Below the pieces are notes generated by a model. That model searched no databases. It saw nothing but the letters and a program-made list of their open reading frames with translations, and was not told the DNA's origin. A DNA stretch of 64,000 bases, taken from assembly GCF_964026585.1 (NCBI RefSeq), contig NZ_OZ032160.1, positions 124,001 to 188,000 on the forward strand. The letters run 5' to 3'. Position numbers and translations under genes: made by a program. This document shows, one piece after another, positions 13,131 through 52,420 of the stretch. Each line of letters starts with the position of its first letter. Position 1 is the stretch's first letter. The DNA is from Candidatus Endowatersipora endosymbiont of Watersipora subatra (GTDB lineage Bacteria > Pseudomonadota > Alphaproteobacteria > Rhizobiales > Rhizobiaceae).

Positions 13131-13943
13131 TTATCCTTCTTGAGGCCAAAGGTGGTGAAAATGATGAACTGGACCCGAACCTAACCCCACATCAAGTTTT
13201 TTAGAATGCTGAATAGCTTGTGAAAGCCAAGCTTTTGAAGAAAAAATAGCATCTTCTAAACCATCACCATGAGCAAGACGAGCTGCAATTGCTGACGATA
13301 GCGAACAACCGGTCCCATGGGTATTTTGATTGAAAATAAAGGGCGAAGAGTACCAGACAGACTTTCCATTAGCCGTCAGAAGAAAATCCTTTGCTTCTTC
13401 GGTTTGGGCATGTCCACCTTTTATGAGAACAGACTGGGGCCCCATATCAATAATAGCAGTTGCTTGACGTTCAATCGAATCATCATCGATAGCGATCTCT
13501 TCATCTAATAAGTGTGCTGCCTCATAGAGATTTGGCGTTACGAGAGTCGCCTGTGGAAAGAGGTCATTAACTAAAGAGCCTATCGCTTCTTCAGGTAGAA
13601 GGATATCGCCACTTTTTGCTATCATCACCGGATCCAGGACAATATCACCACTGTGATAGGACTTCAAACTTTCGGCCACTGTCATAATTATTGAAGGCCG
13701 ATACAGCATGCCAATTTTCACAGAATTGATCGTTATATCCTCAAAAACAGCATTCATCTGTGACTTCACAAAATCAGCGGGGATATCGTGAATAGCTGTT
13801 ATCCTTCGAGTATTTTGTGCGGTTAGAGCGGTGAGGACAGAAGCACCATAAACTCCCATCGCTGAAAATGATTTGAGATCCGCTTGAATTCCTGCCCCCC
13901 CCCCCGAATCAGAAGCAGCAATGGTCAATGCTTTAGGGATCAT
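13131..13943 (-). CDS. thiD: Hydroxymethylpyrimidine/phosphomethylpyrimidine kinase
   Basis: Phosphorylates HMP twice to HMP-PP for thiamine synthesis. Ribokinase-like fold: substrate loop ASDSGGGAGIQADLKSF near residue 10, LDPVMIAKSGD in the middle and the anion-hole motif NQNTHGTGCSLSSAIAA near the C-terminus. Length 270 is normal. It overlaps the thiE stop by four bases (ATGA), so the two are translationally coupled. An 11-bp C run on the + strand (13895-13905) encodes the SGGGAG glycines and is slippage-prone; as written the frame is intact. Confidence 0.93.
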   Translation of the reverse strand: MIPKALTIAASDSGGGAGIQADLKSFSAMGVYGASVLTALTAQNTRRITAIHDIPADFVKSQMNAVFEDITINSVKIGMLYRPSIIMTVAESLKSYHSGDIVLDPVMIAKSGDILLPEEAIGSLVNDLFPQATLVTPNLYEAAHLLDEEIAIDDDSIERQATAIIDMGPQSVLIKGGHAQTEEAKDFLLTANGKSVWYSSPFIFNQNTHGTGCSLSSAIAARLAHGDGLEDAIFSSKAWLSQAIQHSKKLDVGLGSGPVHHFHHLWPQEG

Positions 13944-14602
13944 TTACCTTCACCTTCCTTCTTTTGCTTATCTATTATTAACTTCAAGCTAACCGTTGCT
14001 TGCCTGACTTGATCTTCCATAAAAATTGATGAAATAACAGAGATCCCATCTGCACCATTGGCAATCAACGCGCCAGCATTTCTTCTGTCAATGCCTGCAA
14101 TCGCACCAATCGGTAATTGGGGATTTCTATTTCGTAAAATATCCGCTATCTCTCGCCATCCTTCCAGACCTATTGGCGTGATATTATCCTTAGAGGGTGT
14201 ATCGTATACACTTCCAATGCAGGCGTAGTTGATTATTTCCAATGGAGCTTGACTAGCATGATGATGTGTTTTGATGGTCAAACCAACAATAGCATTATTC
14301 CCAATGAGTAGACGAATATCAGCAGGAGACATATCATCTGGACCTACATGAACACCATCCGCGCCTGAATCTAGTACCAGATCGACACGATCATTGATAA
14401 GAAAGGGTATGTTATAAGGTTCCAAGGCTCTTTTGATCCGATAGGCATTGTTCATAAAAATAGCTGTATCAGCATATTTATCACGGTATTGGATCATTGT
14501 AGCCCCTCCAATAGCCGCTTCGACGGCTATTTCTGATAGTACTCGTCTGCAGGACCGTGTTGGATCTAAAATTGCGTAAAGTAAAATATTACACGGTTTC
14601 AT
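13940..14602 (-). CDS. thiE: Thiamine-phosphate synthase
   Basis: Joins HMP-PP and hydroxyethylthiazole phosphate to give thiamine phosphate. TIM-barrel features: YRDKYADT near residue 40, LINDRVDLVLDSGADGVHVGPDDM for pyrophosphate/Mg binding, and GAIAGIDRRNAGALIANGADGISVISSIF at the phosphate end. 220 residues. It overlaps thiM upstream and thiD downstream by four bases each, forming a tight operon. Confidence 0.93.
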   Translation of the reverse strand: MKPCNILLYAILDPTRSCRRVLSEIAVEAAIGGATMIQYRDKYADTAIFMNNAYRIKRALEPYNIPFLINDRVDLVLDSGADGVHVGPDDMSPADIRLLIGNNAIVGLTIKTHHHASQAPLEIINYACIGSVYDTPSKDNITPIGLEGWREIADILRNRNPQLPIGAIAGIDRRNAGALIANGADGISVISSIFMEDQVRQATVSLKLIIDKQKKEGEGK

Positions 14603-15369
14603 AAAATTTTTATTCGGTCTCTAATTTGTGATTCATTGACTGTTGCAAGTTTATCAATGAGAGCCACTGAAAAACTACCAGGACCTTCAGATGTTTCGGC
14701 AGCGATTTCACCGGCTATATTAAGCCAAGTGATTCCGGCAACTGCTGCTAGCTTATAATCAGTCTCAACAGATGCTACGGCAATCAAGACTGCAGTCAAA
14801 GCACAGCCTACTGCTGTGACTCGTTCCATCGTTGCAGTTCCGTTACCTAAACGTAGCATAGAATGATTATTCGCAATGCGATCTTCAAGACCTGTAACAG
14901 CAAATATTGTATTGTTAAGAGACGCTTGCTCTTGTACCGAAAGATCAGTGCACGGTTCACCTGTCACGGCTTCAAATTCCTTAGCATTGAGACGGATAAT
15001 GGTTGGAGAATGAGCGATTAAGTAACGAGCCAATTGAAATCGCTCATGAGAAACCTCAACAAATACTGGATCGAGAGCCCAAGGTTTACTTAGTTTTTGA
15101 GCGATATAGGCAGCATTTTTAATAGACTGCTTCTGTTGGGCATTGATTGTTCCTAAATTAATCAGTACACCCCTAGATATTCTTACAAAATCTTCAATTT
15201 CAGAAATTGCAGTTGTCATTGATGGCAAAGCACCAATAGCGAGTAAAACATTGGCTGTAAAAGACTGAGCAACGTAATTGGTAATGCAGTGAATATGGGG
15301 ACGTTCTCTACGAACTTTATCAATAGAAAATACGATTCGTTCTATATTAGACTGATGATGCAAAGGCAA
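14599..15369 (-). CDS. thiM: Hydroxyethylthiazole kinase
   Basis: Phosphorylates the salvaged thiazole alcohol so that ThiE can use it. Recognised by HCITNYVAQSFTANVLLAIGA at the N-terminus, WALDPVFVEVS, and VTAVGCALTAVLIA, where the ATP-dependent kinase cysteine lies. Length 256. The start is TTG 15369, preceded by GAGGAG at good distance; an ATG just upstream is out of frame. It begins 45 bp after sdhA on the same strand, so it may be read with the sdh genes. The gap is too short for a TPP riboswitch. Confidence 0.92.
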   Translation of the reverse strand: MPLHHQSNIERIVFSIDKVRRERPHIHCITNYVAQSFTANVLLAIGALPSMTTAISEIEDFVRISRGVLINLGTINAQQKQSIKNAAYIAQKLSKPWALDPVFVEVSHERFQLARYLIAHSPTIIRLNAKEFEAVTGEPCTDLSVQEQASLNNTIFAVTGLEDRIANNHSMLRLGNGTATMERVTAVGCALTAVLIAVASVETDYKLAAVAGITWLNIAGEIAAETSEGPGSFSVALIDKLATVNESQIRDRIKIL

Positions 15370-21678: not shown

Positions 21679-22245
21679 TTATGTTTCAATCAGCGTTTCG
21701 ATGATTAGATTATTATTAGTATAAACACATATATCAGCGGCTATAGACATCGCTTTTTTTGCAATATTTTCGGCATCCTCATCTGTATCGTAGAGTGCAC
21801 GCGAGGCAGCTAGCGCATAATTGCCACCGGAACCAATCGCCATGATTCCACCTTCAGGTTCAAACACATCGCCCGCTCCAGTTAAGCAAAGGCTTACTTT
21901 TTTGTCACTGACTAGCATCATCGCTTCTAATCTTCTTAAATAACGGTCTGTCCTCCAATCTTTAGCAAGCTCTACACAGGCACGCATTAGTTGACCAGAA
22001 TATTGTTCTAGCTTAGTTTCCAATCGTTCCAAAAGTGTAAAAGCATCAGCCGTCGATCCTGCAAATCCACAAATCACATCACCCTTACCGAGGCTTCGTA
22101 CTTTTCGAGAATTTGACTTGATAATAGTCTGTCCGATCGATGCTTGGCCATCACCAGCAATTACCACTTTACCCCCTTTTCGCACCATAATGATAGTCGT
22201 CGAATGAATCGAAAAAGAACCATTGTTTTCCTGTGTTTGCTTCAA
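21679..22245 (-). CDS. hslV: ATP-dependent protease peptidase subunit HslV
   Basis: Threonine protease forming the core of the HslVU complex. The propeptide would be removed ahead of the Thr-Thr pair in [21 protein letters not shown]; the C-terminal side has [15 protein letters not shown]. 188 residues. The start is TTG 22245, seven bases after GGAG, a convincing site, although ATG is more usual in this gene. Upstream lies the histidine-gene scar. Confidence 0.95.
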
Positions 22246-22508
22246 GGATGAACTCCAAACTACTTAGATTAGTTAATCGTAATAAATTATTGACTGATTT
22301 CTGCTTTGGCTTTGATAGCGGAATTCAAAACAGGTAGCAATTCAACTCATCTAGATTAGTTAAAAATATCATACTGGAAAGTAGAAAAATTGTTTATAAG
22401 TTTTTGATCAAACGAAATTTAAACAATGGACTGAATGGTTCAAAGTAAATCCTGTTTAAAAAGGTGCCAGGAGCGATATAATCTGTCGTCTCAAAGCGAT
22501 CTTAGAGA

Positions 22509-22595
22509 GCAACACAAATGGTAGAAGATTGCTAAATTATTTTAGGAAAAGCTTTAAACAAAGCACTAGGTAATCAACTCGGTATTTATGTCAGG
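22509..22595 (+). pseudogene. hisB: hisB remnant (imidazoleglycerol-phosphate dehydratase)
   Basis: Read from 22509, the frame gives ATQMVEDC, a TAA stop at 22533-22535, then IILGKALNKALGNQLGI. HisB proteins have HHTVEDxGIxLGxALxxALGxxxGI at this place. The metal-binding HH is lost (ATQ) and the glycine codon after the cysteine has become a stop. Upstream and downstream parts of the gene are not readable. Identification rests on this one conserved block plus the context. Confidence 0.7.
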
Positions 22596-22809
22596 CCTCG
22601 ATGCTTTGCCAGAGATGATTTCTGTTCTCAACAGGAAAGTGATAGAATCCAAGACTCCTTTTCTTAGAAAATGGCCCGTCGGGGCATAGAAAAAATAATT
22701 GTGAAGGTCTAGGATGAATTACAGTTGACGTAGTTGCCATGATCAAAATTCCTCATATTAGCTAGAACACATTTGGCAACAAACATTGTCTTGAGCTCAA
22801 CAAAGTTCA

Positions 22810-22911
22810 ATGCCGATTATTGCATCTAGAGGGTTGGCGTTGGCATCTATAAAAGATATAGAAAGGCTGACTATATTGGATTCAAAGATACTAGCTGTGC
22901 TCTCGTATTAA
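22810..22911 (+). pseudogene. hisA: hisA remnant (C-terminal segment)
   Basis: The frame from 22810 reads MPIIASRGLALASIKDIERL and continues to a stop at 22909-22911. HisA has IPVIASGGxASxxDIxxL near its C-terminus, the phosphate-binding GG loop; here the second-from-last glycine is Arg and two residues are inserted. The expected following GRALYDG end is missing. It lies 36 bp before the hisF fragment, as in an intact hisA-hisF pair. Confidence 0.68.
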
Positions 22912-22947
22912 AGCGTAGAGAGCTCTGAATCTGTTATGGAGTCAACC

Positions 22948-23013
22948 ATGAGTATGAGTTTGAAAGTTCGTATTATTCCTTGTCTCGATGTCAAGGATGG
23001 CCGGCCTTGCTGA
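22948..23013 (+). pseudogene. hisF: hisF remnant (N-terminal 21 codons)
   Basis: Reads MSMSLKVRIIPCLDVKDGRP followed by Cys and a TGA stop at 23011-23013. The start of HisF (imidazoleglycerol-phosphate synthase cyclase) is normally MLKxRIIPCLDVKDGRVVKG, so the first 18 residues are almost perfect and the catalytic aspartate is present, yet the rest of about 230 codons is gone. A deletion appears to join this start directly to the sequence before coaA, removing hisE as well. Confidence 0.85.
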
Positions 23014-23048
23014 AAAAGACTCTCGTCAATTGCTAAAATAGTTCGGCC

Positions 23049-24026
23049 GTGGTGTTAGAAAGAATGAAGTGTAAGATCCAACAGAATGGGGCCTCACCCT
23101 CACCCTATCTGTTTTTTGATGCTCAGGAATGGGCGTCCTTTCGGGCCGATACACCACTTACCTTAACACAAGAAGAAGTTTACCGGCTACGGTCACTGAA
23201 TGACCCCATTAATCTTGACGAAGTGCGTAATATTTATTTATCTTTATCACGTCTGCTAGCCTCACATGTAGAAGCTGCTTTGGGTTTATTTAAACAACGC
23301 AATCGTTTCCTGAACTTGAAAGACCAAAAAACACCTTTTATTATAGGCATTGCTGGTTCTGTCGCTGTCGGTAAATCAACAACAGCTCGTATTTTACGAG
23401 AATTGCTAACTCGCTGGCCAGCAAGTCCGAAAGTTGATTTGATTACGACAGATAGTTTTTTATATTCAAACGCTGTTTTGCGTAACAATAATTTGATGAA
23501 TCGTAAAGGTTTTCCAGAAAGTTTTGATCGTCGTCGTATTCTTGAATTTCTTTCCCAGATTAAAGCTGGCCAGCGTCGAGTTAATGCACCAGTTTATTCC
23601 CATCTGATTTATGATATCATTCCTGATGAAGTGGTAACTATTGATCGTCCTGATATCCTTATTTTCGAAGGTATTAATGTTTTGCAGGTTAACGATTTGC
23701 CCAAAGCTGGCAATTCTGTTCCTTTTGTATCCGATTATTTCGATTTTTCGATCTACATAGATGCTGATGCCGAGAATATCGAGAGGTGGTATGTTGAGAG
23801 ATTTATGCGATTGTACAAAACTGCATTCCGGAATTCGGAATCTTTTTTTCACCGTTATAGTGAATTTTCTCAAAGCGATGCTTGTACCATTGCTCTTGAT
23901 CTTTGGCAACGTATTAATCTCGTTAATTTGAATGAAAATATATTACCGACTCGCTTAAGAGCTGATTTAGTCTTACATAAAGGGATTGATCATGCCGTTG
24001 ATTGTGTTGGATTAAGACGTCTTTAA
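23049..24026 (+). CDS. coaA: Pantothenate kinase, type I
   Basis: Phosphorylates pantothenate, the first and usually controlling step of coenzyme A synthesis. N-terminal [22 protein letters not shown] is the CoaA opening; the P-loop is [15 protein letters not shown] near residue 102; TTDSFLYSN and the FEGINVLQV segment follow. 325 residues, normal. GTG 23049 is the outermost start and ATG 23064 is equally possible; neither has a clear ribosome site. It lies just past the deleted hisF-hisE. Confidence 0.93.
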
Positions 24027-24243: not shown

Positions 24244-26803
24244 ATGTCTAATGTTGATCTTCTATTCGGACTAGTTGATGGTGCCGATTTAAGGCAAAGT
24301 TTAAGATCAGTAGTAGCCAATAATAACCTTGATCATAATACTTCTTTTATCCGCTCTCAAGTACTGATGATTTTGAAAAAGGCCTCAACATCAGGACGTC
24401 AAAAAGCCGAAGCAATGTTATTGGCTGATGGGAAAGGTGCGGCCTGTGCAATAAGAATTGCTCACCTTCAGGATGAAATTATCCGGTGTCTTTATGATTT
24501 CGCTGCCTCTCATGTCTTTCCCAATCCTCAGTTATCCAATGATGAACGAATGGCGATTCTCACTGTTGGTGGTTATGGTCGTGGTACGTTAGCGCCCAGT
24601 TCTGACCTCGATTTGCTATTTCTATTACCCTATAAAGAAACGCTTTTTGTTCAAAAAATCATTGAATACATGCTCTATATGTTGTGGGATCTTGGCTATA
24701 AAGTGGGTTATGCAATACGAACATTAAGTGAGTCTATCAAACTGGCTTTAGATGATATGATGATTCGTACCGCTATCCTCGAAGGACGATACCTGTGTGG
24801 AGAGATGAAACTCTTCAAACAGCTTATTGATCGTTTTGATGATGAAGTTGTCTCTGGGACAGCTAAAGAATTCATTGCTTCCAAGCTAAATGAGCGGGAT
24901 GTTAGACACGCTAAAGCAGGAAGTTCAAGTTATCTTGTTGAACCGAATGTAAAAAATGGAAAAGGAGGTTTGCGCGATCTTCATACACTTTTTTGGATCT
25001 CAAAATACTATTATCGAGTTCATACTTGGGCAGATTTGCAGAAAGAAGAGGTTTTTTCGGTCCCTGAATTTAGGCGTTTTACTAAAGCGCATGACTTTCT
25101 TTGGGCTGTTCGATGCCATTTGCACTTCTTGACTGGAAAAGCCCAAGAGCGACTTTCGTTTAACTTGCAGCCGATATTAGCTGAGCGTCTGGGCTATAAA
25201 AACCGTCCTGGTTTGATTCCTGTTGAACGATTTATGAACCATTATTTTTTGATTGCCAACGATGTTGGAGATCTAACTAGAATTTTGTGTGCGAGTCTTG
25301 AAGATGAACCCGCTCAAGAATCTTGATCTCGTCATCCTATTTTAGCATACGATTCGAGGGACTGATCAATTTTTTATATCAATAGTCTTCTTATTCCACT
25401 TGATTCGAATGTATTTAAGCGTGCTTCCCTAAACCTGATCAAAAAAGCTAGCAGAATAAAATCAGTTATTGTTTTACCTTAATGTTTTTCAATTGGCCCC
25501 TCGATCACTGAAATTCATTGAATTGACCAGACACTCCGTTAAGATCCAGATCTTACGGACTCCTTTGTCTCTATCTTAACTTCTCGTAGGAAACCGGAAT
25601 CCACTCTGCATAAGATGAATGAGTGTGGTGTTTGGAGCCGATTTCTTCCAGAGTTTTGTAACATCGTAGCGATGATGCAGATGTACCATTATTATGATGA
25701 GCCTTTGTTAAGGTCTATTGGTATGTTATCACAACTTGAGCACGGAGAGGACTATGAAAAACACCCCCTTGCTAATCAAATAATGACCCCTCCACAGGAT
25801 CGTACTGTATTTTATGTAGCTCTCATTGCTAAGGGAAAAGCAGTTGACCACTCGATTGCTAGAGCTGAACATCATCTTTTCCCGAGTCTTGGATTTCAAC
25901 AATCACAAACAGAATTGGTCGCTTGTTGGTTAGTCGGCAATCATCTTTCATCTAATTTGCAGAAATGATGAAAAAGATAGATAGAATGAAAGCCCTGCTA
26001 ACTATCTGTTGCAGGCCCTGCCCTGATACATGGAATCTGGAATGGATGAAAAGGTCAATTACTGAGACGAAACAGAGCCTGATCTGACTGGCACCCCTCC
26101 CCGTAATACCGTAATAAAAGGGGGATTAAAGTTCTTGAAGAATTAAGGAAAGAATTCTCAGATTGGTATGAAGAGGCCATTGCATCTGTTCTTAGCACTT
26201 CATCATGAAAATTACTTACTGACTATTCTACGTAATTCATTCGTGAGACTCATAGGTCTGGACGAACGTATGCGATACATATGGCGAAGCACAAAATTAA
26301 AGATTTCACCAGACCATTCCCGACTATTATCAACTATTACTGGATACTATATTGTTGTGAGAGCGACTATTATGAATGATCAGATATTTACCAAAAAAGA
26401 TGGGAGAGCTGTTATCAAGCGGATCTTTGAAAGATCACTAGATGAGAAAAGACAAGCTCATAAAGGTGGCAAGATGATTCAAATTTCCAAACTTATAGAA
26501 AAACAGACAACTGCAAAGCAATGGATACAGGTTTTCTCGATTCCTTCCATGATTCAAATCAATAATCCATTGTCTGATTATTTCACCGTGATCGAAATAG
26601 AGTCTTTAGACAGGCCAGGTCTTTTGCTCCATATCATTAACACTATCGCTCATTTCTCGTTGGGTGAAAAAATGATCGATACATTTTATATTACTGATTG
26701 TTATAGAAAAAAAATAAAGAGTCCTCAGAAATTAGTTTCAATCCGATTGAAACTAATGGCGATGTTAGAGGGAATTCAAGACGAAGGATCATCGATAAAG
26801 TGA
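24244..26803 (+). pseudogene. glnD: glnD pseudogene ([protein-PII] uridylyltransferase), three fragments
   Basis: GlnD senses glutamine and modifies PII proteins. Fragment 1 (24244-25326, 360 codons) has the intact nucleotidyltransferase motif [19 protein letters not shown] and ends in TGA. From 25327 to about 25556 the sequence is full of stops. Fragment 2 (about 25557-25968) carries the HD-region homology (MNECGVWSRFLPEF, LLRSIGMLSQLEHGE) but with small deletions; the usual HDIAKG has become LIAKGKAVDHS, so the metal-binding HD is gone. Fragment 3 (26168-26803, another frame) holds the two ACT regions (IFTKKDGRAV and IEIESLDRPGLLLHIINTIA). The span fits about 850 codons where roughly 930 are expected. 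Fragment 1 could still make a truncated protein. Confidence 0.9.
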
Positions 26804-49583: not shown

Positions 49584-50195
49584 TCAGTCGTCACGTCCAA
49601 TGTCAATGTGCTCATGTCTCAGCTGTCTGATGCGATCAGGAGGGAAATATCGGTAGAAAGCAGTACGCCCGATTTTGAGCTGATCAATGACATCTCCGAT
49701 GAAAGGGTAATTTTCAGTGTCTTTAAGCATTGCCTCAGCAGACTTGATCCTTTGATCGTTCATCGCTCTTGGTCTTCCTCCACGTCTTCCCCTTTTGTTG
49801 GCAGCCTTCAGACCAGCACGAGTATTTTCAACAATTAAATCGCGCTGGAATTCATCGAAGGCTGCTGTCATATGGAAGAAAAGACGTCCTTCTGGAGTGC
49901 TCGTATCAATCTTCTGAGTTAAAACCTTGAGGGTAATCCCCCTATCATTGATATCAGCAACGGTCTTAATGATTTGCGTCAGCGAGCGAGCTAATCGAGA
50001 AAGCTTCCATACCACGAGTGTATCTCCTTCTCTGAGAAAAGCAAGAACAGCTTTCAATTGAGGTCTATCCCGATGTGAACCTGAAGCTCTCTCTATGAAA
50101 ATCTTACGACACCCTGCTTCTCGTAACGCATCCATCTGCAAAGCAGGAGTTTGATCTATAGTTGAGACACGAGCGTAACCGATAAACATGATCAT
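49584..50195 (-). CDS. Serine recombinase (resolvase/invertase family)
   Basis: Site-specific recombinase. Catalytic serine in MFIGYARVSTIDQ (Ser11 if started at 50195), the RLARSLTQIIK motif, and the regulatory LIVENTRAGLKAANKRG region leading to a C-terminal helix-turn-helix (IGDVIDQLKIGRTAFYRYF). About 203 residues and apparently intact, unlike other mobile-type genes one might expect in a decaying genome. No transposase, no terminal inverted repeats and no invertible segment is visible nearby. Start at 50195 or 50189, both ATG, next to a CATT repeat. Confidence 0.9.
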   Translation of the reverse strand: MIMFIGYARVSTIDQTPALQMDALREAGCRKIFIERASGSHRDRPQLKAVLAFLREGDTLVVWKLSRLARSLTQIIKTVADINDRGITLKVLTQKIDTSTPEGRLFFHMTAAFDEFQRDLIVENTRAGLKAANKRGRRGGRPRAMNDQRIKSAEAMLKDTENYPFIGDVIDQLKIGRTAFYRYFPPDRIRQLRHEHIDIGRDD

Positions 50196-51652: not shown

Positions 51653-52420
51653 AGTTCAATTTTTTAGCTTATCTGACATAATCTGTTTCGATCATCAAGT
51701 CTTCTGAACAAAAGTAAAGAAAAAGTGAGGACCACTTTAATGATTGCTTCTTTGATCATGGCAATAAAAAATGTTGCTGTTGACAGACCATGATGAACCG
51801 ATACTCCCTCATATGTGGAGCTACTTAGGAAGTCAGTTAAGATGGTAAGATAACGGAAACTGCATACGGCATTAGCATAAGTTTTAGGTTCCATGGTCTC
51901 ATATCCATATCGGTTAAGCTGACCGATTGAGCATGACTTAAGAAAAGTCTTAACACCAAGTGGAGAACATGTTTTTGCTTTCCCTGATGGAGGCCAACCA
52001 CAATTGATCTCCATCATGTAATTAGCAATAAGAGTTAGGTGTGTTTTTACTGAAAAGAATTTCTGAGGCAGTGTAAATATGTTCTAAATGACTCTCAGGA
52101 GCTTTGGATAGAATTGGGGAATGCTCTGAAACTTCACCGTGCTCAACTTGAGGTGTGACATTTTAAATATGATCGATTCAGGGATTCCAGTATCAATTGG
52201 ATTGGCCAGTTATCTTTTCGCTGCTACTCTCCAAGATTCCTGAACCTTCTATCTTAAGAGATTTAGGAATAGTTTCCGTCCCCAAAAATTCAATAGTCTT
52301 ATTGAGTTTTAAATGTTCTTAGGATTCTTCAGAGTAGAGAGGGGTAAGAAATGGATCTTTGCAAATTCTTTACAAAGGAGCTAGATTAACCTTTTTCATT
52401 TTAAGCGTGAGGATCTTACG
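51653..52420. other. Gene-poor decayed stretch
   Basis: About 770 bases with no recognisable gene. Two frames on the minus strand stay open for short lengths: 51664-52017 (117 codons, MMEINCGWPPSGKAK..., no family likeness) and one reading TPQVEHGEVSEHSPILSKAP around 52117-52160. Both look like parts of eroded genes, perhaps the same one in different frames. I do not assign any function. Confidence 0.35.

Follow-up and report, generated by a model that had tools for sequence, protein, structure and literature searches.

Histidine synthesis is described as lost in classical Bartonella and in Candidatus Tokpelaia hoelldobblerii; the authors take the tree to fit independent losses, and import from the host is inferred for Tokpelaia (PMC6044324). 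These bacteria belong to the same order as Candidatus Endowatersipora, which is probably host-associated as they are, and in each case the his pathway, or most of it, has been lost while relatives keep it. The cited passages of that account describe no relic of this kind; they note remnants of genes in two other strains, within long spacers. In Endowatersipora, scraps of the his genes can be read in place between hslV and coaA. In lineages of Blochmanniella, hisH is a pseudogene, and histidine synthesis is argued likely to continue (PMC12779916). The two cases are alike in that the reduced genome of a symbiont retains a his gene as a fragment that no longer functions. They differ in that hisH is, in the cited passages, the sole his gene named as inactivated in Blochmanniella, whereas the tested pathway genes of Endowatersipora are gone.

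Because losses of histidine biosynthesis have been published for symbionts within the Hyphomicrobiales, at least in the passages cited, the kind of event described here is already known, and its biology is that of usual genome reduction. At this locus a biosynthetic operon has been removed chiefly through three long deletions, one junction of which is still readable; the step of reduction is unusually well preserved. Our analysis covered a window of 64,000 nucleotides, the whole stretch of DNA to which positions refer unless stated otherwise. With a probability of roughly 0.93, the interval between hslV and coaA is a decaying relic of hisB-(small gene)-hisH-hisA-hisF-hisE, the genome lacks most of the pathway, and histidine is imported. 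Once the his genes had lost their use, three large deletions together with small indels and point changes would have reduced about 3.7 kb to 818 bp.

Gene order and content between hslV and coaA

The interval is bordered on the left by an intact hslV (21679..22245, minus strand; NCBIfam HslV 277.1 bits, cut-off 137) and on the right by an intact coaA (23064..24026, plus strand; NCBIfam panK_bact 453.6 bits, cut-off 235), the latter with 77% identity to its counterpart in the nearest locus, L002. The gap between the two genes is 818 bp, compared with 3703-4791 bp (3.7-4.8 kb) in relatives with larger genomes (16 loci measured). In 31 of 80 fetched loci, hslU and hslV on the minus strand are followed by hisB, hisH, hisA, hisF, hisE and coaA on the plus strand, as determined by tblastn with HisA and HisF matches below 45% identity discarded. 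The borders, order and strands in these relatives are the same as in Endowatersipora, where the genes themselves are replaced by scraps. The remaining 49 loci comprise 26 with coaA alone, 10 with hisBHAFE-coaA and no hslV found, and 13 with a partial set, some of these last on contigs that end early. Among the loci with coaA alone are L016, L017 and L060, which belong to near kin and for which 7 kb upstream is covered. A preliminary description of this DNA had placed hisBHAFE between hslV and coaA in many alphaproteobacteria; the arrangement is indeed common in the group, but it is not universal.

No frame of at least 60 codons is present in the ORF list between 22246 and 23048, and there are stops in all six frames; the gap contains no frame long enough for a His enzyme, as in an operon of pseudogenes, and encodes no working one. 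It contains scraps of hisB, hisH (two pieces), hisA, hisF and hisE, in ancestral order, on the ancestral strand and between the ancestral neighbors, as in a relic. A tblastn search with proteins of related loci located hisH at 22591-22665 and 22682-22780, hisA at 22774-22893 and hisF at 22945-23004, and a looser search added hisB at 22521-22586. Profiles were made from relatives (16 sequences for HisB, 23 for HisH, 30 each for HisA, HisF and HisE, and 11 for the small gene), the source being 37 chosen from loci L002-L101, with four loci that repeat a genome left out. The six frames of the gap were scored with these profiles against 1000 dinucleotide shuffles of the gap as a control. For the hisB, hisH, hisA and hisF pieces, the observed scores were reached by 0 of the 1000 shuffles. 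Every scrap is short (8-40 codons), as chance similarity in spacer DNA would produce, but such similarity has a close to negligible probability given these controls for the pieces of four genes and their arrangement in the order and on the strand of the operon. The remnant of a his operon recognized in the preliminary description is thus borne out, and to the hisA and hisF pieces named there the present analysis adds those of hisB, hisH and hisE.

The spacer at 22246..22514, where the start of hisB is expected, gave chance-level matches only and no recognized his piece; G+C is 32% in 22246-22520. An unnamed small gene present between hisB and hisH in 11 loci ('mid') has no trace in the gap, where its best score was -2.5 bits, reached by 533 of 1000 shuffles. 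On the other side of the interval, directly behind coaA, lies a broken glnD gene (PII uridylyltransferase; 24244-26803, plus strand), which is distributed over three separate frames corresponding to profile positions 21-366, 473-593 and 747-929 of 940.

The scraps and the deletions between them

All scraps lie on the plus strand. The hisB scrap (22515..22589) reads VEDC-stop-IILGKALNKALGNQLGI from 22521, with the stop in frame; it scored 14.8 bits with the HisB profile and keeps 7 of 8 invariant columns. It is followed by a first hisH scrap (SGLDALPEMISVLNRKVIESKTPFL; 22591..22665), with 8.2 bits and 2 of 3 invariant columns, and by a second in another frame (22682..22783), which has two in-frame stops, lacks six residues, scored 4.5 bits and keeps 4 of 8 invariant columns (22703-22780). 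The hisA scrap (22774..22893) is C-terminal, contains an in-frame stop and two extra codons, scored 18.3 bits and retains 6 of 8 invariant columns. A hisA fragment upstream of hisF in the right order had been noted before, and this part stands, but the spacing then given, 36 bp, is to be corrected to 54 bp, the distance from the end of the hisA match (22893) to 22948.

The hisF scrap (22954..23004) consists of codons 1-17 (MSLKVRIIPCLDVKDGR). Positions 22948-23013 translate to MSMSLKVRIIPCLDVKDGRPC-stop, in which MSLKVRIIPCLDVKDGR is followed by Pro-Cys-stop. Identity of MSLKVRIIPCLDVKDGR is 17/17 in a locus from the same order (L086) and 16/17 in two loci of nearer kin (L003 and L004). The HisF profile of 30 relatives gave 18.1 bits, compared with a shuffle maximum of 6.3, and all 10 columns invariant among these relatives are kept. 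These results agree with the earlier observation of a near-perfect HisF start ending in Cys-TGA. Counted from the ATG at 22948 the frame has 21 codons, and from the one at 22936 it has 25, instead of the full barrel of about 250 residues in relatives.

Based on a comparison with the C-terminal motif of HisE, which in 30 relatives resembles QSGLAEKASR, the remainder of this stretch could be assigned to hisE. The whole-protein HisE profile scored 0.1 bits at the junction, a value reached by 54 of 1000 shuffles; as this profile is too weak for the tail alone, we used a matrix of 11 columns at the conserved motif, made from the 30 relatives, and scanned 127936 six-frame positions of the 64-kb window. 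The site at 22994-23026 (RMAGLAEKDSR) ranked first with a score of 16.2, a small lead over the second at 14.8; within 22975-23070, the part in which the motif is expected, the next best of 64 plus-strand positions scored only -2.5. The C-terminal hisE scrap (GLAEKDSR; 23003..23026) keeps 4 of 4 invariant columns. A HisE-profile match at 22635-22718 (plus strand; 3.3 bits, reached by 6 of 1000 shuffles) is out of order, overlaps the hisH scraps and probably reflects chance.

GLAEKDSR and the hisF scrap lie in different reading frames. In that of hisF, the hisE tail is translated as Pro-Cys-stop, and the apparent Cys-TGA is therefore the deletion junction itself. A single deletion of about 1.04 kb has thus brought hisF codon 17 next to the end of hisE. 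Between hisF codon 16 and the hisE motif there are 4 bp here, by coordinates, compared with 1016-1173 bp in relatives; 7 of the 11 nearest loci allowed this measurement, the motif pattern being unmatched in the other 4. The preliminary description had the rest of hisF and all of hisE deleted in one event. The single junction supports one event, but the deletion spared the last eight residues of hisE. A short match of bases at the junction (GGCC/CCGG) would fit a putative microhomology deletion.

Similar comparisons apply to the upstream junctions. From VED of hisB to GLD of hisH the distance is 992-1093 bp in 6 relatives versus 73 bp here. Trp-Asn of hisH and PVIASGG of hisA are 830-842 bp apart in 6 relatives and about 50 bp apart here, as counted from the scrap alignments. 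Three large deletions, of approximately 1.0 kb between the middle of hisB and hisH, 0.8 kb between the middle of hisH and the end of hisA, and 1.04 kb between hisF and hisE, sum to about 2.85 kb and explain most of the shortening of the gap relative to relatives.

The hisF and hisE pieces together keep 14 of 14 invariant columns, compared with 19 of 27 for hisB, hisH and hisA (one-sided Fisher p = 0.023, post hoc). Because this comparison was chosen after the data had been seen, and on pieces that were found through conservation, a younger hisF/hisE event is a hint only. It is doubtful that the hisF/hisE deletion is the youngest and the hisB, hisH and hisA scraps older, marking a stepwise loss of the pathway while the genome collapsed unusually recently, within a single GTDB genus, from the 2.4-4.8 Mb of its other members to 0.9 Mb. 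The same difference in conservation could indicate that selection maintains the near-perfect hisF start, which might for instance serve as a short leader that is translated or belong to the ribosome-loading or promoter region of coaA, and a promoter-like match is present at 23010-23039. However, there are 3 promoter-like matches against a shuffle mean of 2.9, hence no excess, and a short piece may by chance not yet have been mutated. With the post hoc choice of the comparison also counting against it, we consider selection on the hisF start very unlikely, and prefer to regard this piece, like the others, as part of a decaying relic.

Histidine synthesis and possible uptake in the genome

The genome comprises 905,990 bases in a single contig and is 98.8% complete according to a tool estimate. 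For the 14 sampled members of the same genus the listed sizes are 2.4-4.8 Mb, or about 2.6 to 5.3 times as much. The search of the genome for histidine synthesis covered the HisG, HisB, HisI, HisD, HisA/HisF and GATase families. HisG, HisB and HisI had no match in the 906-kb genome in this family search, and for HisD there was only a match of 51 residues, below cut-off. The sole genome-wide match to the HisA/HisF family is IMP dehydrogenase (guaB), and there is no intact hisA or hisF elsewhere that could replace the scraps. Three GATase-family genes were considered as hisH and rejected, their translations reading as carA, pyrG and guaA. The hisS gene is intact and scores over its cut-off; histidine is still used in protein synthesis.

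It might be argued that the assembly is at fault, with the operon intact in the organism and most of it skipped by the contig, as the window comes from one assembly. An artefact of this kind would not account for the stops, the frame change and the indels within the scraps themselves, nor for the lack of any genome match to hisG and hisI, neither of which was mapped to the hslV-coaA interval of relatives; the single contig and its completeness also argue against it. We consider it extremely unlikely.

Histidine auxotrophy, suggested in the preliminary description, is well supported by the absence of HisG, HisB and HisI and of any intact hisH, hisA or hisF, insofar as gene content can indicate it. 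A genome without most of the his pathway implies that the cell must import histidine or peptides containing it, and the source would most likely be a host. The relic thus supports a dependence on outside histidine. The dependence probably extends to several other amino acids, since no match in the genome was found to the PALP family, to which trpB, thrC, ilvA and cysK belong.

The HisA/HisF family is strongly matched (E 2e-81 or better) in 57 of the 60 relatives searched. The exceptions are G006, of the same genus and 77% complete; G019, of the same family, with 2.0 Mb and no match; and G052, which is 88% complete. Within the genus, 13 of 14 members have a strong match (E 4e-84 or better), the fourteenth being the one that is 77% complete. 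Small size alone does not entail loss, since another member of the family (G020, 1.1 Mb) has two strong HisA/HisF matches.

The HisD-family scrap lies in the window in several pieces (51853-52282, minus strand) and adjoins a gene that reads as mnmA-like. Its main piece has 51% identity over 70 aligned columns to one type of paralogue in the genus. This type occurs in 4 of 31 compared loci (L118-L148), one for each of the four genus members sampled for stretches, and in L143, L145 and L147 it stands beside a gene that reads as gamma-glutamyltransferase-like. It scores 252 bits to solved HisD versus at most 205 to sulfopropanediol dehydrogenases, a modest margin, and we therefore do not claim the scrap type as biosynthetic HisD. 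A HisD of 532-574 bits, the best match in 16 other relatives searched, is absent from all 14 members of the genus (G001-G014); each of these has two to four PF00815 matches, the best of which reach about 448-463 bits. It is thus possible that the genus uses a divergent HisD.

Candidate routes of histidine uptake were sought among the ABC permease families PF00528 and PF02653. There are seven PF00528 permeases in the genome, five of which were scanned with NCBIfam. They are a pair of peptide/nickel type, with an ATPase that exceeds the NikE cut-off (363.5 versus 332.55) and permeases below all cut-offs; PstA and a partner, read as a phosphate system; a PotH/PotB-like polyamine permease and a partner, again by reading; and one further permease with no clear substrate. 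The polar-amino-acid model TIGR01726 appeared once among the families listed for the five scanned permeases, below cut-off. The four PF02653 permeases belong to two LIV-type systems, one nearest to LivH/LivM/LivF and the other to the urea models UrtB/UrtC/UrtD, all below cut-off. On this basis, the two LIV-type importers and the one of peptide/nickel type (G000:C1:565001-567129, 640341-642062 and 249448-250946, outside the window) are possible routes for histidine. Because the peptide/nickel-type ATPase passes the NikE cut-off and urea models are the closest to one of the LIV-type systems, neither of these two need carry histidine.

Two other features of the window concern what the genome has kept. 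A serine-recombinase-like gene (49584-50195, minus strand; best NCBIfam model XisF, 82 bits, cut-off 375) is retained in this strongly reduced genome. The thiamine genes thiM, thiE and thiD (13131-15369, minus strand) are intact, each scoring over its NCBIfam cut-off, while the tested amino-acid genes have been lost.
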